From positions 1 through 11,577 of the forward strand of contig JAQULX010000050.1 of NCBI GenBank assembly GCA_028718465.1: a stretch of DNA of 11,577 bases, written 5' to 3'. Below the pieces are notes generated by a model. The model worked only from the letters and a program-made list of their open reading frames with translations. It was not told where the DNA came from and did no database searches. Of the stretch, positions 1-11,577 are shown piece after piece; the first letter of the stretch is position 1, and each line of letters starts with the position of its first letter. Made by a program: the position numbers and the translations under genes. The stretch comes from Dehalococcoidales bacterium (GTDB lineage: Bacteria > Chloroflexota > Dehalococcoidia > Dehalococcoidales > UBA3254).

Positions 1-125
1 GCTAATGATTGGGATAAATTGGCGACCCTGACACCCAGACCTCCGGCCTGAGAATATACATCCGGACCTTCAAAAGACAAGATCACAAAAATCGTATTAT
101 CTGCTGTAATACTGTTTCTTACCAT
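1..125 (-). CDS. Glycosyltransferase / glycogen synthase-like protein, N-terminal fragment (cut by window edge)
   Basis: Only the first 41 codons are present; the rest lies beyond base 1. The ATG at 125-123 is preceded by GGAG at 136-133 with 7 bases of spacing. After about 11 residues comes a hydrophobic beta strand (IFVILSFEG), then PDVYSQAGGLGVRVANLSQ. The AGGLG-x-RV-x-LS pattern is the nucleotide-sugar donor loop found at the N-terminus of GT5 starch/glycogen synthases (usual form KTGGLGDV) and of related GT4 enzymes. By family, the product would transfer a sugar from a nucleotide-sugar donor in the cytoplasm; the acceptor cannot be told from this fragment. It starts 35 bases after the sigma factor stop on the same strand with no clear terminator between, so co-transcription is likely. 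The reading of the fold is fairly firm because of the motif; the exact enzyme is not determined. Confidence 0.75.
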   Translation of the reverse strand, partial: MVRNSITADNTIFVILSFEGPDVYSQAGGLGVRVANLSQSL

Positions 126-160
126 TCATACTCTCCATAATCAATGTTCAACGGCCGTGA

Positions 161-1585
161 CTACAAATAGTCTCTAAGCTTGACGCTGTTGCTGGGGTGA
201 CGGAGGGTGCTTAAAGCCTTGCATTCAATCTGCCGAACGCGTTCGCGAGTAACCCCCAGTTCCGAACTAACCTCCTCCAGAGTGCGGCTGTATCCGTCAT
301 CCAGGCCGAAGCGGAGTTCGAGTACTCTTCTTTCGCGGGTGGGGAGGGAATCGAGAGTGTCTCTAAGCTGTTCACGAAGCATTACTTCAGCCAGTTGCTC
401 CTCGGGGCGGGGAATGGACTGGTCTTCAATGCAATCGCTGAGCTGGTCGTCCTCTTCTCCGATAGGAGTCTCTAATGAAATAGGTTCGCGAGAAATGGCG
501 GCCAGGAGCCATTCGACTTTTTCAGTAGTGATATTGGTTTCTCCTGCCAGTTCTTTGTTGGTGGGTTTGCGACCGTACTGCTGGGAAAACCTTTGCCGGG
601 CCTGGGCCAATTTCCGGATAGTGTCCACTACATGCACGGGTAATCTTACAGTCCGCGAATGATCGGCTATAGCGCGGCTGATGGCCTGTCGTATCCACCA
701 GGTGGCGTAGGTGCTGAATTTAAAATTTCTTCGGTGATCGAATTTCTTGACCGTGCGTATCAGTCCGAAGTTACCCTCCTGGATCAAATCCGGAAGAGAT
801 AGCCCTCTGCCAGTGTATTTCTTGGCGACACTAACTACCAGGCGAAGATTAGCGACTATCAGATGTTCGCCTGCTTCCCTGGCCCTGTCTTTGATTTGCT
901 GGAAATAACAAGCTATTTGCGGTTCCTGATCAACCAGATTTCTCCGGAACTCGATTGATTTAGCCTGCCTGATAAAAGCATGTAAAGAAGTGCTCTTCCC
1001 GACTTCACCAATCAATGGCCAGCAGATAAGCTGGATATCCAGTGACAACTGGACAAGCGCTCTCGAGGTTTGTTCAGGATTCACGCCTGTAATGCCGGAT
1101 ATGGCGTTGACCAACTGAGGATCGATATAACCGTCGATATTGTGGATTAATTTGGGATTGCCGGCCCGGCTCACTATCGTTTCACTGTCAGGAATTTCAA
1201 AATGTCGGCACAGAGCTTCAAAAAGGGTGCTTTGCCGACAAAAACCATCCAGCAGCGCCAAAAAAGTATCAACGGCAGACGGCTCACGGTCCAACATGTG
1301 AGCCACTTCCTGCTCTATATGAGAAAGATATTTCTCCTGTTCGATAATACTTCCCAGCCTTTTCTCCTCTGGTCCGGTGAGCATCGGCGTTCGCCGTGTT
1401 TCAGATAAATAGAGATGTACCAGATTCTCCGAGGTATCTATTTCATCCGGCAAGCGGGCTGCTTCTTCTGCCCAACGCGTTTCAGGTTCGCTGTTATCGG
1501 AGTCCTTACGGAAGACCATTTCCACCGGTTCATCTTCTGCATATGCTGTTTTCACTCCAGGGCTTTTTTTCGTTGATGTTTTCAC
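161..1585 (-). CDS. RNA polymerase sigma factor, sigma-70 family (RpoD/SigA-like, group 1 or 2)
   Basis: A 474-residue sigma-70 protein that would direct RNA polymerase to promoters. Region 1.2 is at about 52-85 (NLVHLYLSETRRTPMLT). A poorly conserved insert of roughly 150 residues (86-235) separates it from region 2 at 236-320, which carries DLIQEGNFGL and the promoter-melting and -10 recognition segment YATWWIRQAISRAIA. Region 3 is at 321-395. Region 4 is at 399-470, with the helix-turn-helix VTRERVRQIE and the RpoD-type end LRHPSNSVKLRDYL. The -10 recognition helix keeps the WW pair and the Gln equivalent to E. coli Q437, but has Ser where E. coli has T440. Region 1.1 is absent or very short. 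The start is GTG at 1585-1583: an in-frame TGA lies three codons upstream, and AGGGG sits about 10 bases before it. The nearby ATG at 1595 is in another frame. Whether this is the housekeeping sigma or a group 2 paralogue cannot be settled from one window. Confidence 0.95.
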   Translation of the reverse strand: MKTSTKKSPGVKTAYAEDEPVEMVFRKDSDNSEPETRWAEEAARLPDEIDTSENLVHLYLSETRRTPMLTGPEEKRLGSIIEQEKYLSHIEQEVAHMLDREPSAVDTFLALLDGFCRQSTLFEALCRHFEIPDSETIVSRAGNPKLIHNIDGYIDPQLVNAISGITGVNPEQTSRALVQLSLDIQLICWPLIGEVGKSTSLHAFIRQAKSIEFRRNLVDQEPQIACYFQQIKDRAREAGEHLIVANLRLVVSVAKKYTGRGLSLPDLIQEGNFGLIRTVKKFDHRRNFKFSTYATWWIRQAISRAIADHSRTVRLPVHVVDTIRKLAQARQRFSQQYGRKPTNKELAGETNITTEKVEWLLAAISREPISLETPIGEEDDQLSDCIEDQSIPRPEEQLAEVMLREQLRDTLDSLPTRERRVLELRFGLDDGYSRTLEEVSSELGVTRERVRQIECKALSTLRHPSNSVKLRDYL

Positions 1586-1645
1586 TACTCTTCATCCCCT
1601 TTGTTTTATATTTGGTAATGATGGAATTCCGCTGTGATATAAAAG

Positions 1646-1721
1646 TAGTGCCCAAGACTCAGAAGAACTCCTTCTCAACCCGTTCCCCTCATCCCCACAT
1701 CGCTTCTCTGCTTGGGCACTA
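1646..1721 (-). promoter_or_regulatory. 11-bp inverted repeat with G-rich loop in the sigma gene leader
   Basis: TAGTGCCCAAG (1646-1656) is perfectly complementary to CTTGGGCACTA (1711-1721), enclosing 54 bases. Read on the minus strand, as the sigma transcript would be, the inner part partly extends the stem (CAGA/TCTG), and the loop holds clustered G runs (GGGG, GGGG, GGG, GG) and an AAGGAG. The 3' arm is followed by CTTTTAT. It ends about 60 bases upstream of the GTG start. It could be a structured 5' leader, an attenuator or a small RNA; the sequence alone does not decide. Confidence 0.5.
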
Positions 1722-2026
1722 ACACTAATTCTATAATTATGGGTCCTGGATGTAATCCGCCAGTATGCGGAATTTACTGTACGTATGCCACGATCAATAA
1801 ACGGAGACTATCCCATGAATTTTAGGGATTTTAATGGAACTCAATAAGTTCTTTTCGCAGCCTGTACTAGGTATATCCCCCTAATTTGAAGTTCTTCAGT
1901 ATTACTTAAATATATCAATCGTCAAAAATATACCGATAATGACAGGAACAGGTATTCGACAAAGCCTGTTAGTTGTGGTATATAAGAAAAAAGAGACTGT
2001 TTCAGGATGGATATTTTTAAGGGTGA
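1722..2026. other. Divergent intergenic region between sigma factor and response regulator genes
   Basis: No convincing gene was found. The right end holds a promoter candidate for the response regulator, listed separately. Minor palindromes are present: GAACT-N5-AGTTC near 1840, and TCCGC-N6-GCGGA at 1756-1771. GGTATAT occurs at 1870-1876 and 1977-1983, and inverted at 1928-1934. On the minus strand, -10-like hexamers CATAAT and TATAGA occur near 1730-1741, but no matching -35 element was seen, so the sigma gene promoter stays unassigned. Confidence 0.5.
1956..1986 (+). promoter_or_regulatory. Candidate sigma-70 promoter for the response regulator
   Basis: TCGACA (1956-1961, 5 of 6 to TTGACA) lies 17 bases before TATATA (1979-1984). 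TATAAG (1981-1986) is an alternative -10 with a 19-base spacer. Transcription would begin near 1991, giving a leader of about 36 bases. Confidence 0.45.
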
Positions 2027-2713
2027 ATGATGGAAGAAAAAATTAAGGTATTGGTTGCGGATGACCATCCTGCATTTCGTGAGGGACTTTGCCGACTGTT
2101 AAAGGATGAAAACGACCTGGAAGTAGTCGCTATGCCGGAGGATGGGGAGGAGGCGGTAGAATCAGCCAAAAAGCTTCAGCCGGATGTGGCTATTATCGAT
2201 ATTTCTATGCCTAAACTCAACGGCATCGAGGCGGCCAAACAGATCAGGGTCGCTTCGCCTTTAACTGCGATTCTTATGGTCAGTGCCTACAGCTATCCTT
2301 CATATGTATTGGCCGCTCTTCGCGCCGGCGCGGCGGGATATTTATTAAAGAACGCTCCTCTGCATGAGCTTATCAGCGCCGTCCGTCTGGTCCATTCAGG
2401 GGAAGGCGTTTTCGATCTCAAAGCTACAGGCAAGATATTACGGCGCCTGGCCACTGATAAAGTGGAGAAGCGGAAAGACCTGGAAGAGTTGCATCCCCGG
2501 GAGCTGCAGGTACTCAATCTGGCGGCTAAGGGAGTGGGTAATAAAGAGATAGCCAACCAGTTGGGTATAAGCGAACGCACAGTCCAGACTCATCTGGTCA
2601 ACATATTCAGGAAGCTGCGCGTCAGTTCCCGTACCGAGGCCGTTTTGCATGCGCTTAAAGAAGGATGGTTGACGCTGGACGATCTGCCCAATAAAGATGA
2701 GACTGCCGGCTAA
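2027..2713 (+). CDS. NarL/FixJ-family response regulator with LuxR-type DNA-binding domain
   Basis: A two-component transcription factor of 228 residues, normal length for the family. The receiver domain (about 6-122) has the acidic pair D12/D13, the phospho-acceptor D58 in IIDISMP, the switch residue S86 and the conserved K108 in YLLKNAP. A linker leads to a LuxR/GerE helix-turn-helix at 153-215 (ELHPRELQVLNLAAKG, then NKEIANQLGISERTVQTHL). All phosphorylation residues are intact, so it should be switched by a kinase. Two ATGs stand in tandem (2027 and 2030). GGG at 2021-2023 is better spaced for the second, so the protein may lack the first Met. The gene converges on a HisKA_3 kinase of the type that normally partners NarL-class regulators. 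That pairing is inferred from proximity. The 124 bases between the two stops show no clear U-tailed terminator. Confidence 0.95.
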   Translation: MMEEKIKVLVADDHPAFREGLCRLLKDENDLEVVAMPEDGEEAVESAKKLQPDVAIIDISMPKLNGIEAAKQIRVASPLTAILMVSAYSYPSYVLAALRAGAAGYLLKNAPLHELISAVRLVHSGEGVFDLKATGKILRRLATDKVEKRKDLEELHPRELQVLNLAAKGVGNKEIANQLGISERTVQTHLVNIFRKLRVSSRTEAVLHALKEGWLTLDDLPNKDETAG

Positions 2714-2837
2714 ACCTGCCCTGATCACCCGGCGTTTCTCTTTGCGGCGCAGGCCGGTATTCAGTAAGGGTCGTCATCCGGGATGCCGGCTCTCATATCG
2801 CAGTGCGGAGCACGTTTTGTCGGAATGGGTTTTGGGT

Positions 2838-4790
2838 TTAATTTAGAAAAGGTAGTCTGATGTTTATTATAGTACCCTTTTGAGGCTCGCTGCGAATGGT
2901 GAAATAGCCTCCATGCAGGCGAGCCCTTTCTTCCATTCCAATAAGCCCCAGCTTTCCCTGAACTGCCAGTTCGCTTAGTCTCTCCGGTAATTTGAAGCCC
3001 TGTCCGTTATCACTGATCGTCAGCTTGACATAATTATTACGGTAAGATAAATGGATATCGACATTCTTAGCCAGGCTGTATTTTGTTATATTATTCAGGG
3101 CTTCCTGGGTTATCCGGAAAATGGTTATTTCCATATCCGAGGAGAGGAGCTTTTCTTTACCGCTGACTTTCAGACCGGCGCTGATACCTTTCTGCGAAAG
3201 GTCGTCGGTCAGGGTCTCCAGAGCCGCAGTAAGGCCCAGATAGTCCAGCACACCGGGCCTTAAATCGTAGCTGAACCGGCGTACCTCCTCGATAACTCCA
3301 TTGATTTTTTCTCTCAGATAGGCGAGGTCTTGCAGCGTGCTTTGCGGGTCCTGCTCTTTTGATTGAATAATCGCCTCTGTAGCCAGACATAAGGCTGCCA
3401 GAGACTGTACCGTTTCTTCATGCAGCTCCTGGGCTATCCGTTTTCGTTCTTCTTCCTGGGCTCTGGTAATCTGCATGATATAATAATCCATATTCTCTCT
3501 CAGTCGCCTGGATTCTGTTATATCATTCCATGTCTGGAGATAATATTTGGGTTCATCATCGTCTATCAGTATTGTCGATGTCTCAACCCAGAAATAATCG
3601 CCGTTCTTCTTCCGGAAACGTTTTTCCTGCTTGCCTTTCCTGTTACACAGGTCTTTCAGGAAAGATTCCTTGATCCTTCTGGTATCCTGAGTCCACCATG
3701 GATAGGGCGCTTTGAGTCCGATTGTTTTATCAGCGGAAAATCCGGTTAATTTTTCAAAGGCGGGGTTAATATAGGCAATTGATGTATCAGGGTTAATGAC
3801 AAATATCGGGTTTGGAGAATGCTGCAGTAAGCGGGCATTGAATTTTTCACTTTTCTTTAATTCCCTTTCTGCGTTTTTCCGCTCGGTAATATCAAAAGCT
3901 GCCCCGATAACCCCGGTAATTTGCTCGGATGAATCTCTTAAGGCTTCGATTGCGGATTGGAATATCCGTCCCTGCCATTCAAAATCAAATGTCTGAGGAA
4001 AGCCTTCAAGAGCGCTGACATGGGCTTTTAAAAAAGCATCAGGGTTTCTGAGGCTAAAATATTCAGCCACACCAATGCCCGCGCAGCCGGCCGGGTTATT
4101 GCCTTGTACAGAGATGCCGGCTCCTGAAATTGAGGTCAATTGAAAGTTTGTGTTGGTGGTCCATAATATATAGGGCGTCTGTTCCAGTATCAAGCTTAAT
4201 TGGGTCTTGCTTTTCTTGAGGTCCTCTTCCATTTTCTTACGTTCGGTAATATTACGCACCAGCCAGAGAAAACCAATTGTCTCATTCTGAAAATTACATT
4301 GACGCGAGATACTGAGAGAGGCGTAAAACGGCTCGCTGTCCTGCGGATGCAAAAATAACTCGAATTGTTGCGATCCTTCAAACCAGTTTAGCTGTAGTCC
4401 GAAGTCATGTTGTTTTATATCGGGTATTAGAGTGGTGATAGGCTTACCGATTAGACTGCTTTGCGTTGTGGCAAGCAGTGTCAGAATGGTCTGGTTGGCT
4501 TCCTTAATGATTCCATTGGTATCGGTTACCAGGTATCCGTCAGGCGCAAAATTAAAGAACTCCCAGTAATGCTGATAGCCGATCTCGAGGGTCTGGTATG
4601 CGAAAAGCAGTTCGCTAACACGGCGTTTTAGAGCGACATCACTGGATTTTAATTCCTCTACGATCTCAACGAGTTTCTGGACGGTGAGGTGAAGTTGCTC
4701 ACGAAGCCCCAGAGGATCGCTTTCAGGGTGTTGCAGAGTTGATAATTGTTGTATTAAAGTCTCGAATTTCCGCTCGAGATTCCTTTCCAT
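2838..4790 (-). CDS. Three-PAS sensor histidine kinase (NarX/LiaS-type HisKA_3)
   Basis: A 650-residue kinase without predicted membrane spans, so probably a cytoplasmic sensor. A charged helical N-terminus (1-65) precedes three PAS/PAC units at about 72-182, 192-303 and 312-427, each ending in the PAC signature (NITERKKMEE, DITERKNAER, DITESRRLRE). The HisKA_3 H-box is EEERKRIAQELHEETVQSL with the phospho-acceptor H457; the residue after His is Glu where many relatives have Asp. The HATPase_c domain has an N-box (TQEALNNITKY, 561-571), a G1 box DNGQGF (594-599) and a G2 box GLIGMEERARLHGG (615-628). It looks catalytically complete. No haem, flavin or FeS ligand pattern was recognised in the PAS domains, so the signal is unknown. 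The ATG at 4790 has only a weak AGG upstream. Its likely partner is the converging NarL-type regulator, by inference. Confidence 0.95.
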   Translation of the reverse strand: MERNLERKFETLIQQLSTLQHPESDPLGLREQLHLTVQKLVEIVEELKSSDVALKRRVSELLFAYQTLEIGYQHYWEFFNFAPDGYLVTDTNGIIKEANQTILTLLATTQSSLIGKPITTLIPDIKQHDFGLQLNWFEGSQQFELFLHPQDSEPFYASLSISRQCNFQNETIGFLWLVRNITERKKMEEDLKKSKTQLSLILEQTPYILWTTNTNFQLTSISGAGISVQGNNPAGCAGIGVAEYFSLRNPDAFLKAHVSALEGFPQTFDFEWQGRIFQSAIEALRDSSEQITGVIGAAFDITERKNAERELKKSEKFNARLLQHSPNPIFVINPDTSIAYINPAFEKLTGFSADKTIGLKAPYPWWTQDTRRIKESFLKDLCNRKGKQEKRFRKKNGDYFWVETSTILIDDDEPKYYLQTWNDITESRRLRENMDYYIMQITRAQEEERKRIAQELHEETVQSLAALCLATEAIIQSKEQDPQSTLQDLAYLREKINGVIEEVRRFSYDLRPGVLDYLGLTAALETLTDDLSQKGISAGLKVSGKEKLLSSDMEITIFRITQEALNNITKYSLAKNVDIHLSYRNNYVKLTISDNGQGFKLPERLSELAVQGKLGLIGMEERARLHGGYFTIRSEPQKGTIINIRLPFLN

Positions 4791-4854
4791 TTTTTAGCCT
4801 TTGGTTTTATCTCTTGAGACCGGTGAATGTTTTTCGTTCTGAAATGTTCTGGCG

Positions 4855-4884
4855 GCTATGGGGGAGCTTCAGAGTATACGTCAA
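4855..4884 (-). promoter_or_regulatory. Weak promoter candidate for the histidine kinase
   Basis: TTGACG (4884-4879, 5 of 6) is followed after 18 bases by CATAGC (4860-4855), a poor -10 (3 of 6). A good -35 with a weak -10 next to a palindrome would fit an activator-dependent promoter, but the evidence is thin. Confidence 0.25.
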
Positions 4885-4907
4885 GCAACAACTTTACATA
4901 TTGTTGC
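4885..4907. promoter_or_regulatory. Palindromic operator candidate upstream of the kinase gene
   Basis: GCAACAA (4885-4891) and TTGTTGC (4901-4907) are perfect 7-bp inverted arms around 9 bases. The palindrome abuts the TTGACG -35 candidate of the kinase on its upstream side, where activators usually bind. It could also form a hairpin, but no U-run follows. Confidence 0.4.
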
Positions 4908-4938
4908 ATTATATTTTCGTTTATTAAAGTATGATTAA

Positions 4939-4954
4939 CTATAATATTACAGGT
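4939..4954 (+). repeat. Duplicated promoter-like segment, left copy
   Basis: CTATAATATTACAGGT here matches CTATAAATATTACAGGT at 5274-5290 with a single-base gap. Both contain a -10-like hexamer (TATAAT here, TATAAA there). The right copy lies just before the universal stress protein gene; the left copy has no obvious -35 and no gene close downstream. Confidence 0.5.
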
Positions 4955-5251
4955 ATATTATACTCATGAATCAATACGTATAAGTGCCTATTGGGGACAG
5001 CAAAAATGCTTAGTGGCGGTCTGGCTGTTAACAGTTACAAGTTGAAGCAATTAATAACTACCCCCCAATATATAACGTTTTTGAGGTTGGTCTGGTTAGG
5101 TGAGTTATTCACTCTTAATGACAATCGGTATTCTATTGAGATATTGACGGGTTATGCCAGGGTTCATCTTTTTATATATTATACATGAAAGTCCTGGGGT
5201 CTTTTAAGTCTACAATGTTTCAGAAAAAATGAAAAAGCTCTTAGGACAGTA

Positions 5252-5280
5252 TTGTTTTACTCATTCATTAGTGCTATAAA
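5252..5280 (+). promoter_or_regulatory. Candidate promoter of the universal stress protein gene
   Basis: TTGTTT (5252-5257, half-matching -35) lies 17 bases before TATAAA (5275-5280), which has an extended -10 TG at 5272-5273. Predicted transcription start is near 5287, followed by the strong ribosome site GAGGAG (5298-5303), 7 bases before the ATG. Confidence 0.5.
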
Positions 5281-5310
5281 TATTACAGGTTAATTACGAG
5301 GAGAAAGCAC

Positions 5311-6207
5311 ATGTGGGATAAAATTATCGTTCCTATGGATGGTTCCACAACAGCCGAGGTGGCGTTACCCTATGCTATCGAATTTGCCGCTAGAAGCGGT
5401 GCGGAGCTTGTTTTGCTGTTTGTCAAAGAGCCGAATGATTATCGGTCTGATCATATTATCAATGCGTATCTGACGACTCTGGCGCAAAGGACCAAGGAAG
5501 AAGTCCAGCAATATTCGAAAGAGACCGGAGTAAATGAAATCAAGACCAGGGGGGAAATTTTAACCGGCAATCCGGCAGATGAAATACTGGCTTTCGCGGA
5601 AAAAAACCCCAATAGCAAAATCCTGATGGCGACTCACGGCCAGTCCGGTATCGGTACGCGCTGGGCTTTAGGCAGTGTGGCAGATAAAGTAGCCAGGGCT
5701 ACTACTGTGCCGATTACCCTTATCAGGGCTAAACGCGACCGGGCTGCAATACGTCCGAAGGGCATGCTGAAATCGATCCTGGCTCCTGTTGATGGATCGA
5801 AGCTGGCAGAGGCTACTCTACCGTATGTCAGGGATATGGCCCTTCAATCACAAGCCGAAGTGGTGTTCTTGCAGGTCCTGGAGAAGAAACTGGTAACCCA
5901 CAAAATGATTGAGGTCCCTGTTCCCGAAGAAACACGCCAGGCGGCGAAAGAATACCTGGAAAGGCTGGTTAATGATTTTAAAAAAGCCGGCGTATCAGCC
6001 AGATATGAAATAGAGGAAACCAGGGGAGATGTGGCAGGAGAGATTGTCGAATACACGGAAAAGAAAAAAGTCGATTTAGTGATTATGGCTACCCATGGTT
6101 TTACCGGCCTCCGGCGCTGGGTTATGGGAAGCGTTACCAGCAAAGTTATCCGGGAAGGCAATTCCCCGATTATGCTGGTGAGGCCTACAGGCGGATATAA
6201 AGATTAA
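5311..6207 (+). CDS. Tandem-domain universal stress protein (UspA family)
   Basis: A 298-residue protein of two UspA domains, at about 1-140 and 151-292, each opening with the nucleotide-fold start (IIVPMDGS and ILAPVDGS). The ATP-loop is MATHG-x10-GS in domain 1 (107-122) and MATHG-x9-GS in domain 2 (259-274). The family consensus for ATP-binding members is G-2x-G-9x-G(S/T). Domain 2 has the right spacing, domain 1 has one extra residue, and both have Ala at the first Gly. Nucleotide binding is therefore plausible, mostly in domain 2. Tandem Usps are cytoplasmic stress-survival proteins, often induced by oxygen, energy or redox signals. GAGGAG with 7-base spacing makes the ATG secure. The gene is monocistronic, ends in a strong terminator, and lies beside a two-component pair, so control by that pair is a reasonable but untested idea. 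Confidence 0.95.
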   Translation: MWDKIIVPMDGSTTAEVALPYAIEFAARSGAELVLLFVKEPNDYRSDHIINAYLTTLAQRTKEEVQQYSKETGVNEIKTRGEILTGNPADEILAFAEKNPNSKILMATHGQSGIGTRWALGSVADKVARATTVPITLIRAKRDRAAIRPKGMLKSILAPVDGSKLAEATLPYVRDMALQSQAEVVFLQVLEKKLVTHKMIEVPVPEETRQAAKEYLERLVNDFKKAGVSARYEIEETRGDVAGEIVEYTEKKKVDLVIMATHGFTGLRRWVMGSVTSKVIREGNSPIMLVRPTGGYKD

Positions 6208-6226
6208 AAACTGATTTACATTATCA

Positions 6227-6257
6227 CAAAGGCGGGCTATGTTCCCGCCTTTGTTTA
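6227..6257 (+). terminator. Intrinsic terminator of the universal stress protein gene
   Basis: CAAAGGCGGG (6227-6236) pairs perfectly with CCCGCCTTTG (6244-6253) around a 7-base loop, and the T-rich 3' side runs on (TTTGTTTATT). It lies 20 bases after the stop. The converging enoyl-CoA hydratase gene may use it too, but the minus-strand side has no clear T-run. Confidence 0.9.
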
Positions 6258-6282
6258 TTGCTTTAAAGATATAATCAAGAGA

Positions 6283-7050
6283 CTATCTGGCGCGATAATA
6301 GGGTTTCCGTTTTTCGGTAAATGCCCGAAGCCCTTCATAAAAGTCCTCGGTGCCTTTGAGATATGTCTCCAGGGCGTCTTCGAGTTCAAGGCCTTCATCG
6401 AAGGTGATCTGGGTTCCCTTGATCATGGCTTCCTTTGCAGCGCGGACTGCCAGGGGAGCCGCATTGCACATCACCTGTGCCCATTCTTTAGCCGTTGAGG
6501 AGAGCTTGTTTTTAGGAACAACACGGTTGATCAGTCCCATGCGGTATGCCTCTTTGGCATCAATTTTTTTGCCTGTTAGTAGAAGTTCCGCAGCCTGGCA
6601 CCAGGAAATCTGACGCGGTAATCTCTGGGTGCCTCCCCAGGCGGGTATCAGGCCAAGGGTAACTTCAGGAGAACCGAACGCGGCATTGTCCGCAGCGATG
6701 CGGATATCACAGGAAAGTACAATTTCCAGGCCTCCGCCCAGGGCGAGTCCGTTGATAGCGGCCACTAAAGGTTTTGTAATATCCAGGCCCCGCATCAGCG
6801 TGGGAGGCAGCGGCTGAGCCCGGTCCTGGTAGTGGTTCATGGATAGCGTACTCCGGATATCAATGCCTGAACAAAAAGCTTCTTCACCAGCCCCCGTAAT
6901 GATTCCGGCCCAGATATTGGGATCATCCCTGAAATCTATCAAGGCTTCATGGAACTCCTGCAAGGTGGGGATATCCAGCGCGTTCATTACATGCGGGCGG
7001 TTCAGGACGAAGATAGCTATATTACCCTCTTTACTATAGTCAATACCCAT
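6283..7050 (-). CDS. Enoyl-CoA hydratase/isomerase (crotonase) family protein
   Basis: A 255-residue crotonase-fold protein, full length for the family. The N-terminal strand and LNRP motif (VLNRPHVMNAL) are present. The oxyanion-hole segments are AFCSGIDI (58-65, G62) and ALGGGLEI (103-110). Both acid/base residues of true enoyl-CoA hydratases are kept: E109 in GGGLE and E129 in SPEVTLGLIPAWGGTQRLPR. By family it acts on an acyl-CoA thioester in the cytoplasm, most simply adding water to a 2-enoyl-CoA in fatty-acid or aromatic/amino-acid breakdown. The exact substrate cannot be read, and no other beta-oxidation gene is in the window. The ATG is preceded by GGGAGGG with a short 4-base spacer. 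It is transcribed from its own near-consensus promoter, divergent to the metal exporter. Confidence 0.93.
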   Translation of the reverse strand: MGIDYSKEGNIAIFVLNRPHVMNALDIPTLQEFHEALIDFRDDPNIWAGIITGAGEEAFCSGIDIRSTLSMNHYQDRAQPLPPTLMRGLDITKPLVAAINGLALGGGLEIVLSCDIRIAADNAAFGSPEVTLGLIPAWGGTQRLPRQISWCQAAELLLTGKKIDAKEAYRMGLINRVVPKNKLSSTAKEWAQVMCNAAPLAVRAAKEAMIKGTQITFDEGLELEDALETYLKGTEDFYEGLRAFTEKRKPYYRAR

Positions 7051-7123
7051 AAAACCCTCCCATCCGGAAAAATGCGGAAATTGCCATACTGATCGAGGCG
7101 ACCAGAAGTGCTAATTTCATGAT

Positions 7124-7152
7124 ATTTTAGCAGTCGATAAACCGAGCGTCAA
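7124..7152 (-). promoter_or_regulatory. Sigma-70 promoter of the enoyl-CoA hydratase gene
   Basis: TTGACG (7152-7147) and TAAAAT (7129-7124) each match the consensus at 5 of 6 positions and are exactly 17 bases apart. The start of transcription would be near 7117, giving a leader of about 67 bases. This is the best sigma-70 promoter in the window. Confidence 0.7.
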
Positions 7153-7170
7153 GAAAAAGGGGTGTTTAGG

Positions 7171-7203
7171 GAACCTGTATCAAGTTACAGGGACAGCAGG
7201 TTC
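7171..7203. promoter_or_regulatory. Compound inverted repeat upstream of the enoyl-CoA hydratase promoter
   Basis: Two nested palindromes share one arm: GAACCTG (7171-7177) with CAGGTTC (7197-7203), and CCTGTA (7174-7179) with TACAGG (7186-7191). The outer stem can be extended to TTAG/CTAA with a two-base bulge. Relative to the predicted start near 7117 it covers about -55 to -87, a typical activator position. A repressor site or a hairpin are alternatives. Confidence 0.4.
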
Positions 7204-7426
7204 TAATTAGTCAAAGTGTCAGCGGTTATATAAATTCGGTCAGATGGAATTCAGACAAAGCCGTCTCGAGCCGCTATAAGAAGCACAAGGGCTGATTCAT
7301 TTAAAAGATTTCATTCAATACCACTTTACAGCCACTTATTGTAAAATACCCATATTGGGCACACGAGGAACGGTAATAATATCAAATTGCTAATATCATC
7401 CAATCCAAGACCGGCGAATTCAATAT

Positions 7427-8353
7427 ATGAATAAACTAAAGAAAAACATTTTTACTCCAACGGGCGCTGCCAAGCTTTCGCTAGCTGTGGTAGTCAGCTT
7501 GATCATTCTGAAGGTAATCGTTTCTATTATTTCCAACAGCATCAGTATTACTGCGCAGGCGGCAGATAGCCTTCTGGACCTTTTCTCTATCGGAATTGCC
7601 TATTTTGCGGTCAGGATGTCAGTGGCTCCGGCCGATGAAAAACATCCATTCGGGCATGGCAAACTGGAAGGCCTGTCAGCCCTGGTCCAGGCAATCATGG
7701 TACTGGGCGCTGGTGCCTATATTATCTTTTCAGCCATCCAGCGGATTATAAATAACACTCCTATCGAGCCTGATGGAGGTATAGCTGTGATGGTGATTTC
7801 TATCGTGGCCAGCTTCCTTTTATCCCGGCATTTACTCCGGGTAGCAAAAACCTCTGGTTCTATGGCCATTGAAGCATCAGCCCGCAATATTCGCGCAGAT
7901 GTTTTTTCTGCGGCCGGGGTTCTTGCCGGGCTGGTGCTGGTACGTCTAACCAACCTGGTGGTGCTGGACCCGATTATAGCTCTGATTATGGCTGGTTTCG
8001 TCCTTAAAGCGGGCTATGAAGTAATTAAAGGGGCTTTCTCCGAACTCATCGATACGGCCTTACCGCCGGAAGAACAGGATATCATTAGAAAATGTATTCA
8101 GGAACATAATACCCAGCTGGTGGATTTTCATGCCATGCGCAGCCGGAAGGCTGGAAACGAGCGCTTCATAGACCTGCACCTGGTAATGCCGCGAAACTTG
8201 AGTGTAGAAAAGTCCCATCGAATGTGCGATCACCTGGAGAAAGATATTAAAGAGAAAGTTTCAAATGCCAGTATTGAAATTCATGTCGAGCCTTGCCGGG
8301 GCAAAGATTGTATTCACTGTCTGATAAAGGTTTGCGATATACGTCAGCATTAA
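7427..8353 (+). CDS. Cation diffusion facilitator (CDF) family metal exporter
   Basis: A 308-residue inner-membrane metal/proton antiporter. It has about six hydrophobic segments (near 16-38, 44-64, 85-103, 116-135, 158-174 and 178-195) and a cytoplasmic dimerisation domain from about 207. Site A in TM2 is intact (ADSLLDLF, D47 and D51). TM5 carries N154-x3-D158 (NIRADVFSAAGVL), where zinc transporters such as YiiP have His-x3-Asp. The family motif HPFGHGKLE (73-81) is present. The C-terminus adds C290-x4-C295-x2-C298-x4-C303 beyond the usual domain, a likely extra metal site. Substrate is not assigned: divalent Mn, Fe, Zn, Co or Cd are all possible. The ATG at 7427 is the only start available, since an in-frame TAA lies at 7391 with no start codon between. 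The ribosome site is weak. Confidence 0.93.
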   Translation: MNKLKKNIFTPTGAAKLSLAVVVSLIILKVIVSIISNSISITAQAADSLLDLFSIGIAYFAVRMSVAPADEKHPFGHGKLEGLSALVQAIMVLGAGAYIIFSAIQRIINNTPIEPDGGIAVMVISIVASFLLSRHLLRVAKTSGSMAIEASARNIRADVFSAAGVLAGLVLVRLTNLVVLDPIIALIMAGFVLKAGYEVIKGAFSELIDTALPPEEQDIIRKCIQEHNTQLVDFHAMRSRKAGNERFIDLHLVMPRNLSVEKSHRMCDHLEKDIKEKVSNASIEIHVEPCRGKDCIHCLIKVCDIRQH

Positions 8354-8535
8354 AAATCTGAATCCATAAGATGAAGTCAATAAAGAACTGTCTCACAATA
8401 GTGAATAATTCAAAGACCTGAACCAGGAAATATGGCTGCTACCTTTAACTATTTTTGGAAGATACTTTGCTGCTGCACCGTTTCGAAAGAAGCGGGGCAT
8501 AATCGTAATTTCTCTTGCATTAAAAAAAGTTCAAC

Positions 8536-8563
8536 TGTAACATTTTTACAGGTATTTCGTTAA
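8536..8563 (+). promoter_or_regulatory. ECF-type promoter of the ECF sigma gene (autoregulation candidate)
   Basis: TGTAAC (8536-8541), 16 bases, CGTTAA (8558-8563). A -35 with an AAC core and a -10 starting CGT at 16-base spacing are characteristic of ECF sigma promoters. The same two hexamers and spacing recur at 11229-11256 (minus) and 11493-11520 (plus). Transcription would begin near 8570, leaving a very short leader with AGGA before the TTG start. Confidence 0.8.
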
Positions 8564-8581
8564 ACGTAACAGGAAACAAGA

Positions 8582-9154
8582 TTGCTGAACTCAGACAATA
8601 ACGATTCGAGCTTGAACCAGCAAGTAGAATTGATCGTTGATCGTGCTGCAGGTGGCGATACGGAGGCTTTCGGGAGGCTTTATGATATTTATGCTGACCG
8701 GATTTATCGCCATATCTACTACAGGACGAGCAATGCCGATGATGCACGGGATTTAACGCAGGAAGTGTTCATGAAAGCCTGGCAAGTGCTACCTAAATAT
8801 AAACGCACCAAGACGCCTTTTTTAGGCTGGCTTTTCACTATCAGCCATAACCGGGTAATCGATTATTACCGGACCAAAAAGGACCATGTTTACCTTAACA
8901 GTGAAATAGACTGGGGAAATCAGGCTAGTAATCCTGAAAATTTAATGGAATCAGCTTTTGCTCAACAAGAGGTTAGAAAAGCCATATTACAATTACCTGA
9001 AGATCAGCAGCAGGTAATATTAATGAGTTTCATAGAAGGATTTGAATACCCGGAAATCGCAGCGGCGTTGAATAAAACTGAAGGCAATATCCGGGTGATG
9101 GTACACCGGGGATTAAAAAAAATGCGCCAAATCCTCGGCGAAGCAGAGGCTTAA
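8582..9154 (+). CDS. ECF (group 4) RNA polymerase sigma factor
   Basis: A 190-residue sigma factor with only regions 2 and 4. Region 2 spans about 16-100: AAGGDTEAFGRLYDIYADRI, then DDARDLTQEVFMKAW (core-polymerase binding) and the -10 recognition segment PFLGWLFTISHNRVIDYYR. Region 4 spans about 128-186: LPEDQQQVILMSFIEGFEYPEIAAAL, then the helix-turn-helix KTEGNIRVMVHRGLKKMR that reads the -35. It has no C-terminal extension, so control is probably by an anti-sigma factor; the adjacent membrane protein is the obvious candidate. The start is TTG at 8582, with AGGA (8571-8574) 7 bases upstream and a family-typical short N-terminus. Its own promoter carries the TGTAAC-N16-CGTTAA motif, which suggests positive autoregulation. 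Only one base separates it from the next gene. Confidence 0.95.
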   Translation: MLNSDNNDSSLNQQVELIVDRAAGGDTEAFGRLYDIYADRIYRHIYYRTSNADDARDLTQEVFMKAWQVLPKYKRTKTPFLGWLFTISHNRVIDYYRTKKDHVYLNSEIDWGNQASNPENLMESAFAQQEVRKAILQLPEDQQQVILMSFIEGFEYPEIAAALNKTEGNIRVMVHRGLKKMRQILGEAEA

Positions 9155-9155
9155 T

Positions 9156-10538
9156 TTGGAAAAAATTGAAGTCATCTTAACTGAATGTGTAAAGGAGATA
9201 AGAACCGGTAAGTCTACCCTGACGGAATGCCTGGAGCGTTACCCTTCCCAACGTCAGGTACTGGAGCCTTTGCTGAGAATTGCGCTTAACATCCAGGAAC
9301 CTCCGGCATTCAACCTCGATCCAGCATATAAACATTCAGCTAAGGCTCAGTTACTTCAACAAATAAGAGCCAGGAAACCAGTGAAATCCAGATCCTGGAT
9401 AGACATATTTAGTTTCGGTCTGCCTCGTCAACTGGTTTGGGCAAGGGTGGCGGTAATGGCGGTGATTGGCGTGATTATTATTTCCCTGATGGGAGGCAGC
9501 ACTGCTTATGCTGCACAAAGCAGCCTTCCGGGGGAAGTCCTGTACCCTGTGAAAAAAGGAACGGAAGAAGTCAGATTATGGGCGGCAGGAGATAATGCTG
9601 ATAAAGCCGAACTGAACATGGCATTTGCCCGGGTCCGCCTTGACGAACTAAACCGGCTGGCCTCCAGAAATTCCAGTCAAACCGAACTGGCGGTTCAGGG
9701 GTACCGAAACAACTTACGGGCGGCTGAGAGTAATCTACAGAGCATCACAAATGCCGCTACCCGGGTTAATATGCTGGAAAGATTCTCGCAAAAACTTGGG
9801 GACCAGATATCTTATTGTGATCTTTTAGTTGAAGCTACTTATGGTGAAAACTTGTCTATTCGACAAGCTACAGATCTGGCCGTTACGCAACAAATCGATA
9901 CCTTCACCAATCTGGCCCAACAGGATAACTTGCTAGCTGCACAGGCTAACCTGGATATGATGCAGAACCGGTTGCAACGAGCGCAGGCTAAAGCTATTGA
10001 ACAGCAATATCAAATAATGCAATCTGTATTGTTCCAGTACCAACAATTTAGTGAATTGGGACAACGGATGCTTCAAAATACGCATAACACTCAAAATCAG
10101 ACTGCCGAAATTGACAACCTAACCGCTACCAGACTTCAGAGTTATCTGGAAACACTGAGTACCATTTCTCAACAGGTACCACAAGGTTACCAGAGTGAAG
10201 TAGAAGCCAGCCAGGCTATGACTATTCAATATCATAACCAGGCTCGTTATGGACACCAGACCCGGGGTGAATCTGAAGGAGAGCCCGGCCAGACACAGGG
10301 TTATGGTCCCGGCCCTGGGCCTAACCTCACACCTTCTAATGATGGCAGCAATACAACCCCCGAACCAACTTCATCAGCTATATACCCGACTCCGTCTCCA
10401 GGTAATGGAGAAGGATCTGGTGGCAGTGGAGGAAGCGGACCCGGACCTGGCTCCAGTGGAGGCACAGGGACAGGAGGAGATCCAAACTCTAACTCTGACA
10501 ATATTTCTGGATCTACTGACGGCAGTGGCAAACACTAG
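9156..10538 (+). CDS. Single-pass membrane protein with DUF5667-like segment; probable anti-sigma factor or sensor of the ECF sigma
   Basis: A 460-residue protein whose TTG start lies one base after the ECF stop, with AGAGG at 9145-9149 inside the sigma gene, so the two are translationally coupled. The cytoplasmic part (1-92) has a helical segment with CVKEIRTGKSTLTECLERYP, a pattern I associate with N-terminal domains of membrane proteins beside ECF genes in Chloroflexota. One transmembrane helix (about 96-118) follows. Outside lies a segment opening SSLPGEVLYPVKKGTEEVRL (122-141), which resembles DUF5667, then a long Gln-rich helical region (about 145-345). A Gly/Pro/Ser/Thr-rich tail (about 365-460) could span or bind the cell envelope. 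The zinc anti-sigma motif H-x3-C-x2-C is absent. The anti-sigma role rests on gene order and topology; a structural envelope protein controlled by the sigma is the alternative. Confidence 0.8.
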   Translation: MEKIEVILTECVKEIRTGKSTLTECLERYPSQRQVLEPLLRIALNIQEPPAFNLDPAYKHSAKAQLLQQIRARKPVKSRSWIDIFSFGLPRQLVWARVAVMAVIGVIIISLMGGSTAYAAQSSLPGEVLYPVKKGTEEVRLWAAGDNADKAELNMAFARVRLDELNRLASRNSSQTELAVQGYRNNLRAAESNLQSITNAATRVNMLERFSQKLGDQISYCDLLVEATYGENLSIRQATDLAVTQQIDTFTNLAQQDNLLAAQANLDMMQNRLQRAQAKAIEQQYQIMQSVLFQYQQFSELGQRMLQNTHNTQNQTAEIDNLTATRLQSYLETLSTISQQVPQGYQSEVEASQAMTIQYHNQARYGHQTRGESEGEPGQTQGYGPGPGPNLTPSNDGSNTTPEPTSSAIYPTPSPGNGEGSGGSGGSGPGPGSSGGTGTGGDPNSNSDNISGSTDGSGKH

Positions 10539-10643
10539 CGGATAAGGAAAAATAGTCCGTGCATGTCTATTTCGTCTTTTCATTCAGCAGTTTCTATATA
10601 TTTGTCTGTCTATCACGCGGTATTCCAGCATTACTTCCGAGCT

Positions 10644-10673
10644 GTTTACGAGGTAAACCGTCTTTTTATTTTT
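10644..10673 (+). terminator. Possible terminator of the ECF/DUF5667-like operon
   Basis: GTTTAC (10644-10649) pairs with GTAAAC (10653-10658) over a 3-base loop, followed by CGTCTTTTTATTTTT. The stem is short and AT-rich, so this is a weak call despite the good T-run. Confidence 0.4.
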
Positions 10674-10774
10674 ACAGGTTGGAAATGCTGTTATAAAGAG
10701 GAAGCCGCTTAATTAAGCTTCGAAAAAATCAGGGGAATATTTCAAGTTTTAGAAGTGCTAATAAGAGGACAGGT

Positions 10775-10807
10775 AAAAAGATGAGGGAGTCATTTGACTC
10801 CCTCATC
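10775..10807 (-). terminator. Strong intrinsic terminator of the small secreted protein gene
   Basis: GATGAGGGAGTC (10780-10791) and GACTCCCTCATC (10796-10807) form a perfect 12-bp stem with a 4-base loop. On the minus strand the stem is followed directly by TTTTT (10779-10775). It lies about 125 bases after the minus-strand stop. The plus-strand side (GTTCTGTTCT) is a poorer tail but could give some bidirectional function. Confidence 0.85.
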
Positions 10808-10930
10808 GTTCTGTTCTATGGTGAACATCAGGCTTTTCCTTCCTGGTAACGGCCTCAATAATTAACCTGAAACCACCTCTGGTTTATCCCGAGAAGATAC
10901 GTTTCCTCGTTTTTAACTCTGCGTCTGCTA

Positions 10931-11185
10931 TTAGTCCGTTACGACGTTATTCCGGTATTTTCCGTAATCCCCGGGGCCACCATTACCGTATTTATATTCG
11001 TCTCCAACGGGAACACAATCCAGGTTTTGGCAATTATCGCCAGTGCCATCCTGAAGCTGGAGTTTGTCCTGAGCCTGTGTCTGATCGCAGTCACCGTTCG
11101 CGGCGAAGGCAGTTCCAGCCAGAGCGACTACGAGTATAGCAGTTAACACCATGGCTAAACCTAAAATCTTAACTATTTTTCTCAC
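10931..11185 (-). CDS. Small secreted protein of unknown function, ECF-controlled
   Basis: An 84-residue protein I do not recognise. It starts with a classical Sec signal peptide: positive MRKIVK, a hydrophobic core of about 18 residues, and a signal peptidase I site AFA-AN after residue 28. The mature part is about 56 residues, acidic and rich in Gln, Asp and Gly, with three cysteines (C33, C52, C57) and a Tyr/Gly-rich end (YKYGNGGPGDYGKYR). There is no lipobox, so it should be exported free rather than lipid-anchored. GTG at 11185 is the start, with GGAGG at 11197-11193 and 7-base spacing. The gene has its own ECF-type promoter about 44 bases upstream and its own terminator. An odd number of cysteines would leave one free or allow an intermolecular disulfide. 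No function is proposed beyond being a likely output of the ECF system. Confidence 0.85.
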   Translation of the reverse strand: MRKIVKILGLAMVLTAILVVALAGTAFAANGDCDQTQAQDKLQLQDGTGDNCQNLDCVPVGDEYKYGNGGPGDYGKYRNNVVTD

Positions 11186-11228
11186 TAAAATTCCTCCACA
11201 ATATTATTTTACCGTTACCTTAGTATGA

Positions 11229-11256
11229 TTAACGAATGAAGTGAGAAATTGTTACA
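11229..11256 (-). promoter_or_regulatory. ECF-type promoter of the small secreted protein gene
   Basis: On the minus strand TGTAAC (11256-11251), 16 bases, CGTTAA (11234-11229): identical hexamers and spacing to the ECF gene's own promoter. Predicted start near 11221, a leader of about 36 bases, then GGAGG and the GTG start. Confidence 0.8.
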
Positions 11257-11492
11257 AAATATTTTATTATAAAAATTTTTATAGATCAGTTAAAAGTCAG
11301 TACTTGAGATTGAAACTTGAAAAAGAAAATACCATGAATTTCTCTTAAGTAGAAAAGAAGATTACTACATCGACAATTCAGATTTACTAAGTAATCGGAG
11401 AAGAATGACTAAAGTACTATGTAAATTGCATACCCTGCTTTTTAAGGCCAGATTAGCTATAAGCCACGAGAAAATATGTGATAGAAGGCTGT

Positions 11493-11520
11493 TGTAACAA
11501 AAAAGAAAAAACTTCGTTAA
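11493..11520 (+). promoter_or_regulatory. Third ECF-type promoter, driving the gene at the right edge
   Basis: TGTAAC (11493-11498), a 16-base A-rich spacer, CGTTAA (11515-11520). It lies 41 bases before an ATG with a very good ribosome site, the expected layout for a target gene. Confidence 0.78.
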
Positions 11521-11561
11521 GCTTTGGTGAAACAAGAAAAAAATAAACCAAGGAGGACAAC

Positions 11562-11577
11562 ATGAAACGTATAAAAA
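11562..11577 (+). CDS. Start of an ECF-controlled gene, cut by window edge
   Basis: Only five codons are visible (MKRIK). The ATG at 11562 follows AAGGAGG (11550-11556) by 5 bases, the strongest ribosome site in the window. The Lys/Arg start resembles the MRKIVK opening of the secreted protein on the other side of the control region, so another exported protein is possible but cannot be shown. Confidence 0.65.

Follow-up and report, generated by a model that had tools for sequence, protein, structure and literature searches.

Three identical promoter-like sites at a Chloroflexota locus encoding an extracytoplasmic function sigma factor and a DUF5667 membrane protein

The subject of this study is a set of three identical promoter-like sites around an extracytoplasmic function (ECF) sigma factor gene of a Dehalococcoidales bacterium. 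They lie in a stretch of 11,577 nucleotides (nt), assembly GCA_028718465.1, contig JAQULX010000050.1, positions 1 to 11,577 of the forward strand, the whole of which is referred to as the window. The sigma factor gene is followed by a gene for a membrane protein with a DUF5667 domain, and the intergenic region to the right is flanked by a small secreted protein gene and by a gene at the right edge. The features are listed below.

8536..8563, plus strand: putative autoregulatory promoter of the ECF gene, with the -35 element TGTAAC at 8536-8541 and the -10 element CGTTAA at 8558-8563
8582..9154, plus strand: ECF sigma factor, 190 amino acids, TTG start, with Sigma70_r2 at residues 33-100 and Sigma70_r4_2 at residues 129-181
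9156..10538, plus strand: anti-sigma-like membrane protein, 460 amino acids, beginning 1 nt past the ECF stop codon
9426..9515, plus strand: single hydrophobic segment of the DUF5667 protein (codons 91-120), located by hydropathy and ending in AYA|AQ
10931..11185, minus strand: small secreted protein, 84 amino acids, GTG start, signal-peptide-like N-terminus
11229..11256, minus strand: putative target promoter of the small secreted protein gene, exact motif, with an equivalent promoter-gene pair in the relatives L001 and L002
11493..11520, plus strand: putative target promoter of the right-edge gene, exact motif, 41 nt from the ATG, as for many targets of relatives
11562..11577, plus strand: right-edge gene with the first codons ATG AAA CGT ATA AAA, cut by the contig end

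The ECF protein scores above the NCBIfam cut-off for the superfamily sigma70-ECF. It gave no Pfam match to Sigma70 r3, and about 28 residues separate r2 and r4_2. With the model of BldN-family ECF factors (TIGR02952) it reached 140.3 bits, which is below the curated cut-off of 206.45. The small secreted protein matched no Pfam family.

The motif TGTAAC-N16-CGTTAA is present exactly at 8536-8563 (plus), 11229-11256 (minus) and 11493-11520 (plus), as a preliminary description of the window had reported, and 15 bases are common to all three sites (TGTAACA-N13-TTCGTTAA). The description had seen no fourth copy, and the only further site found at up to two mismatches, at 4924-4951 (minus), does carry two. 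Its statement that each site precedes a start codon with a ribosome binding site holds for both target genes: the small secreted protein gene starts with GTG at 11185, 43 nt past the -10 element and with GGAGG, and the right-edge gene, of which 16 bases are present before the contig ends, starts with ATG at 11562, 41 nt past the -10 element and with AAGGAGG at 11550-11556. It does not hold in full for the ECF gene, whose TTG at 8582, 18 nt past the -10 element, has a weak AGGAAA only.

In a first-order Markov sequence as long as the window, 0.0007 occurrences of the exact motif are expected. At up to two mismatches, matches occur by chance with a mean of 0.76, and four or more were reached in 1 of 200 shuffles. 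Because the motif had been chosen after the fact, any gapped pair of two hexamers (spacer 14-19) seen at least three times was also counted, both in the window and in 40 Markov sequences. The window yielded 10 overlapping versions of such a three-fold pair, every one of them this same motif, while five of the 40 controls contained some three-fold pair, with at most three versions. These five are what could speak for a repeat that arose by chance or from the AT-rich composition of the window. We consider such a repeat extremely improbable, and it is already contradicted by the 15 common bases and by the conservation across species described below. Taken alone, the window makes the significance of the motif suggestive, and it is therefore the comparative data that decide.

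The closest relatives among named genomes belong to the Chloroflexota, with sigma proteins 71% (L001, Chloroflexi bacterium) and 69% (L002, Dehalococcoidia bacterium) identical to that of the window. A sigma factor profile run against 393 genomes of the class of L002 gave 23 matches in 22 genomes at E<=1e-60, and searches of the family and order around one matching genome added 6 matches in 5 genomes. The window and these matches, minus one of the two matches in genome G004 (C102, with TGTAAC-N16-CGTTGA in its upstream DNA), make up the 29 loci compared here. Their orthologous ECF proteins are 43-100% identical, and the window, L001 and L002 form one clade of the sigma tree (100/99).

Within 80 nt before the orthologous ECF genes, [TC]GTAAC-N16/17-CGT was found in 28 of 29 cases (window included) and the strict form TGTAAC-N16/17-CGTT in 26 of 29, compared to an expectation of 0.00007 per gene from mononucleotide shuffles. 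The spacers of these promoters vary freely and are unconserved. As a control we used the 21 paralogous ECF genes, which are all those with loci among 27 paralogous matches (two had less than 60 nt upstream); the strict form precedes 0 of the 21. Autoregulation of the ECF gene, as put forward in the preliminary description, is supported by this conservation before orthologous and absence before paralogous genes, as far as sequence comparison can tell.

Target sites are concentrated at the same loci. With the sigma promoter excluded, TGTAAC-N16-CGTTA occurs 25 times in the 154 kb lying up to 3 kb from the 29 sigma genes (two of these sites are in the window), while the reversed pattern occurs 0 times. 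At 3-10 kb, 1 site was found in 162 kb and the reversed pattern was again at 0. When spacers of 12-21 were tested, 25 sites had a spacer of 16, one had 17 and there were none at the others. At least one exact target site is present in 18 of the 29 loci, and a near form was observed in L001, L145, L151 and L188.

For the rest of the genome, 22 relative genomes (about 39 Mb) were scanned with the reversed pattern as control. A first pattern with spacers of 14-18 gave 5 matches against 5 control matches in G002, the genome of L002, and no match in six further genomes. Its spacing was too permissive and its last bases were too restrictive, so it was split into the forms CGTTWA and CGTTAT. The CGTTWA form yielded 23 matches (16 at the sigma promoter, 2 nearby and 5 elsewhere; reversed control 10), and the CGTTAT form 25 (19 near the sigma gene and 6 elsewhere; reversed control 6). 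Elsewhere both forms are thus at or below the control, giving no sign of distant targets in the relatives for these forms. The enrichment near the ECF locus over this background supports the local regulon that had been proposed from the window.

The same numbers bear on the possibility that these are genuine promoters whose main reader is another sigma factor of the same genome, the adjacent ECF gene being just one of its targets. Between 1 and 4 ECF-like genes per genome were counted in 14 relative genomes (E<=1e-12), and the loose form of the motif precedes 1 of the 21 paralogous ECF genes (L090), so that the motif might also serve a second sigma factor. Against this stand the lack of a strict motif at any of the 21 paralogous genes and the background level of both forms outside the ECF locus, and we regard this explanation as improbable.

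Promoters of the sigma genes and of the targets fall into two classes, which were compared using two lists of 24 spacer-16 sites, with spacer-17 rows and several later loci left out. The consensus is TGTAACAttt...TtCGTTaA for sigma promoters and TGTAACAAa...CGTTAt for targets. The -10 element ends in A in 19 of the 24 sigma promoters and in T in 20 of the 24 targets. The distance from the -10 element to the start codon is 12-23 nt for the sigma gene (in the 14 loci where that start was picked) and 27-64 nt for targets, apart from three at 8-13 nt. The two targets of the window, at 43 and 41 nt, match the target class in spacing, yet end in CGTTAA. Promoters of Bacillus subtilis sigmaX and sigmaW have -35 elements of the TGTAAC or TGAAAC type and CGnn at -10 and resemble the sites described here, which differ in their -10 element CGTTA(A/T) and fixed spacer of 16; according to the tests run, the present sigma factor is not an orthologue.

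Since TGTAAC...GTTAnn looks like an inverted repeat, with TGTAAC and GTTA as imperfect half-sites, the element could also be an operator for a dimeric transcription factor, and a few sites (L186, L187) can be read on the opposite strand with one mismatch. However, the right half is far more often CGTTAA, CGTTTA or CGTTAT than the palindromic CGTTAC, which was seen in 1 of the 48 listed sites. Moreover, the C of CGTT is fixed in all 48, the spacer is 16 and rarely 17, and the listed sites are oriented as promoters ahead of a start codon. An operator is thus a very improbable reading of the element.

A strongly hydrophobic, signal-peptide-like N-terminus was found in 28 of 29 predicted target proteins, whose starts were chosen by hand (9 of these starts are intragenic; the right-edge gene of the window and a distant site of L190 were not counted). 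The only target without it is found in L186 and is a complete anti-sigma-like protein, the second of that locus. The targets comprise small secreted proteins (window, L001, L002 twice, L136 and L150), DUF5667 proteins that lack the N-terminal domain, and further exported proteins. Pfam confirmed the domain in all four of the six separate DUF5667 targets that were scanned (L134, L136, L141, L147); those of L139 and L145 share about 53% identity with the anti-sigma-like protein of their own locus, and the promoter of the L145 target has one mismatch. In the small secreted proteins (window 10931-11185; P0241-P0247) the leader around KILGLAMVLTAILVVALAGTAFAA is strongly conserved and the mature parts are variable, several of them with CVPN and PGPHG-like motifs.

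The DUF5667 partner had no place in the preliminary description of the three sites. A relative of this protein sits downstream of the sigma gene in most loci. The protein has a cytoplasmic N-terminal domain (residues 1-90), one membrane helix, the DUF5667 domain and a Gly/Ser/Pro-rich tail. At the end of the helix lies a signal-peptidase-like AXA site, AYA|AQ (codons 117-119, 9504-9512), at which the protein may be cleaved, and A119 is invariant in 31 aligned sequences. Judged by its operon position, its topology and its conserved N-terminal domain, with no family match, the protein is most likely an anti-sigma factor. Two cysteines of the N-terminal domain (C11 and C25, codons 11 and 25) are invariant in the 31 aligned homologues and are possibly a redox or metal switch. 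In L137, L140, L142 and L185 an open reading frame (ORF) of about 60-100 amino acids between the sigma and anti-sigma-like genes repeats the N-terminal domain alone; the one that was scanned had no Pfam match.

In many relatives the target promoter lies within the downstream anti-sigma-like reading frame itself. This was observed in 8 of 27 ORFs (L135, L137, L140, L142, L146, L148, L186, L189; among the 27, that of L149 is an overlapping frame and that of L147 is cut by the contig end), and a ninth promoter, in L188, has one mismatch. In all eight the promoter is followed by AGGAGG and then by an in-frame ATG right before the membrane helix. Shuffling synonymous codons in all 27 ORFs yielded 0.053 ORFs with a promoter, never more than 2 over 2000 rounds, and 0.0065 ORFs in which AGGAGG and ATG followed it.

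That these sites merely reflect a conserved peptide is disfavoured, as the residues between the boxes vary and the codons GTA ACA AAA and CGT are kept in 8 of 8 genes. This constancy stems partly from the way the loci were chosen. That choice did not involve AAA, the last base of ACA or AGG AGG; the synonymous shuffling of all 27 ORFs is the unbiased test of the peptide idea. The eight genes have 48 invariant degenerate residue columns, in 10 of which the codon is also kept. Six of these 10 codons belong to the promoter (V, T, K and R) or to AGGAGG (its two R). Searching the 393 genomes of the class for the promoter with AGGAGG resulted in 12 matches in 10 genomes, all beside this sigma gene (reversed pattern, 0): 6 intragenic, 3 at separate DUF5667 genes and 3 at divergent genes in G035. 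The anti-sigma-like gene of L137 has DUF4382 in place of DUF5667 and keeps the N-terminal domain, the internal promoter and AGGAGG-ATG.

On the sigma tree the in-gene arrangement needs four changes, at least two of which are forced by well-supported branches, so that it is either old with losses or has arisen more than once. Separate DUF5667 targets resemble the anti-sigma-like proteins of the same clade, which suggests an exchange between the two forms. The clade of the window, L001 and L002 is without the in-gene promoter and has small secreted proteins instead. The product of an in-gene promoter is predicted to be an exported protein without the cytoplasmic domain, with the helix serving as signal peptide.

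Taken together, we conclude that the three sites are very probably promoters of the neighbouring ECF sigma factor, which would be held by its DUF5667 partner and serve its own locus. Several observations weigh against this. L190, a long branch in the sigma tree, lacks the ECF promoter, and the loose site of L090 belongs to a paralogue. No target-like site was found in 7 of the 29 loci (L138, L149, L152, L153, L185, L187, L190), some of which are on short contigs. The N-terminal domain of the partner matched no Pfam anti-sigma family (DUF5667 alone was matched by more than 3 of 31 members) and, by sequence, no solved structure in the PDB.

The sequences themselves show the sites, how they are conserved between species, spaced, oriented and confined to this locus, and that the targets are of an exported kind. 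From them we infer recognition of the sites by the sigma factor, transcription from these sites, anti-sigma activity of the partner, a route of cleavage, a signal and a function of the targets, which could act together as follows. The sigma factor would drive its own operon, consisting of the sigma gene and the DUF5667 membrane protein gene, in positive feedback, and also the genes on either side of the right-hand intergenic region, those of the small secreted protein and of the right edge. The DUF5667 protein would keep the sigma factor at the membrane through its N-terminal domain and sense an envelope signal through its outer DUF5667 domain. If this protein were lost, perhaps by a signal-peptidase cut at AYA|AQ and subsequent intramembrane proteolysis as for RsiV and RsiP, the sigma factor would be set free and would then amplify the operon and turn on the adjacent genes for exported proteins, and few or no others. 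More tentatively, and with less than even confidence, we propose a self-contained, locus-only module in which the in-gene promoter of many relatives makes an exported copy of the sensor, acting as a decoy or scavenger that takes up the signal and ends the response, or as a protective effector. In such a module the in-gene form would have been replaced by a separate DUF5667 gene in some lineages and by small secreted proteins in that of the window.

ECF factors were originally defined by AAC at -35 and CGT at -10, by autoregulation and by an anti-sigma factor transcribed with them (PMC8103513); AAC and CGT are present in the sequences of the sites described here. Class I anti-sigma domains are associated with 72% of Chloroflexi ECFs (PMC7406223). 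Unlike in classical ECF/anti-sigma operons (PMC8103513), the regulon is found only at the locus (22 relative genomes, two forms of the motif), the partner has DUF5667 and no recognised anti-sigma domain, and relatives have the target promoter inside the partner gene. The likeness to RsiV/sigmaV and RsiP/sigmaP of Bacillus, in which RsiV and RsiP are cut at signal-peptidase sites of such a kind (PMC8844934), is that of a single-pass anti-sigma-like protein whose helix has at its outer end a site resembling those of signal peptidase (AYA|AQ). The differences are that DUF4179 (RsiV-type) is absent from the Pfam results for the DUF5667 protein of the window, and that an exported version lacking the anti-sigma domain is predicted in relatives.

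A search of part of the literature gave no mention of DUF5667, and one by titles and the starts of abstracts, likewise of part of the literature, gave no description of this system or of such an in-gene promoter. The basic circuit is a textbook one, from which the locus-only regulon and the intragenic promoter set this system apart as a novel form. The analysis supplies a promoter, a target set and a candidate partner for a Chloroflexota ECF system, and it places DUF5667, by name a domain of unknown function, on the outer side of what is probably an anti-sigma protein. The in-gene promoter would be an unusual route to a sensor-only product whose synthesis depends on the sigma factor kept in check by the full-length protein.

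Further to the left, the window contains a gene for an RpoD-like sigma factor (161-1585, minus strand), which scores under the NCBIfam RpoD equivalog cut-offs. Positions 2027-4790 hold a gene for a NarL/LuxR-type response regulator (plus strand) and, convergent to it, one for a PAS-containing histidine kinase (minus strand).

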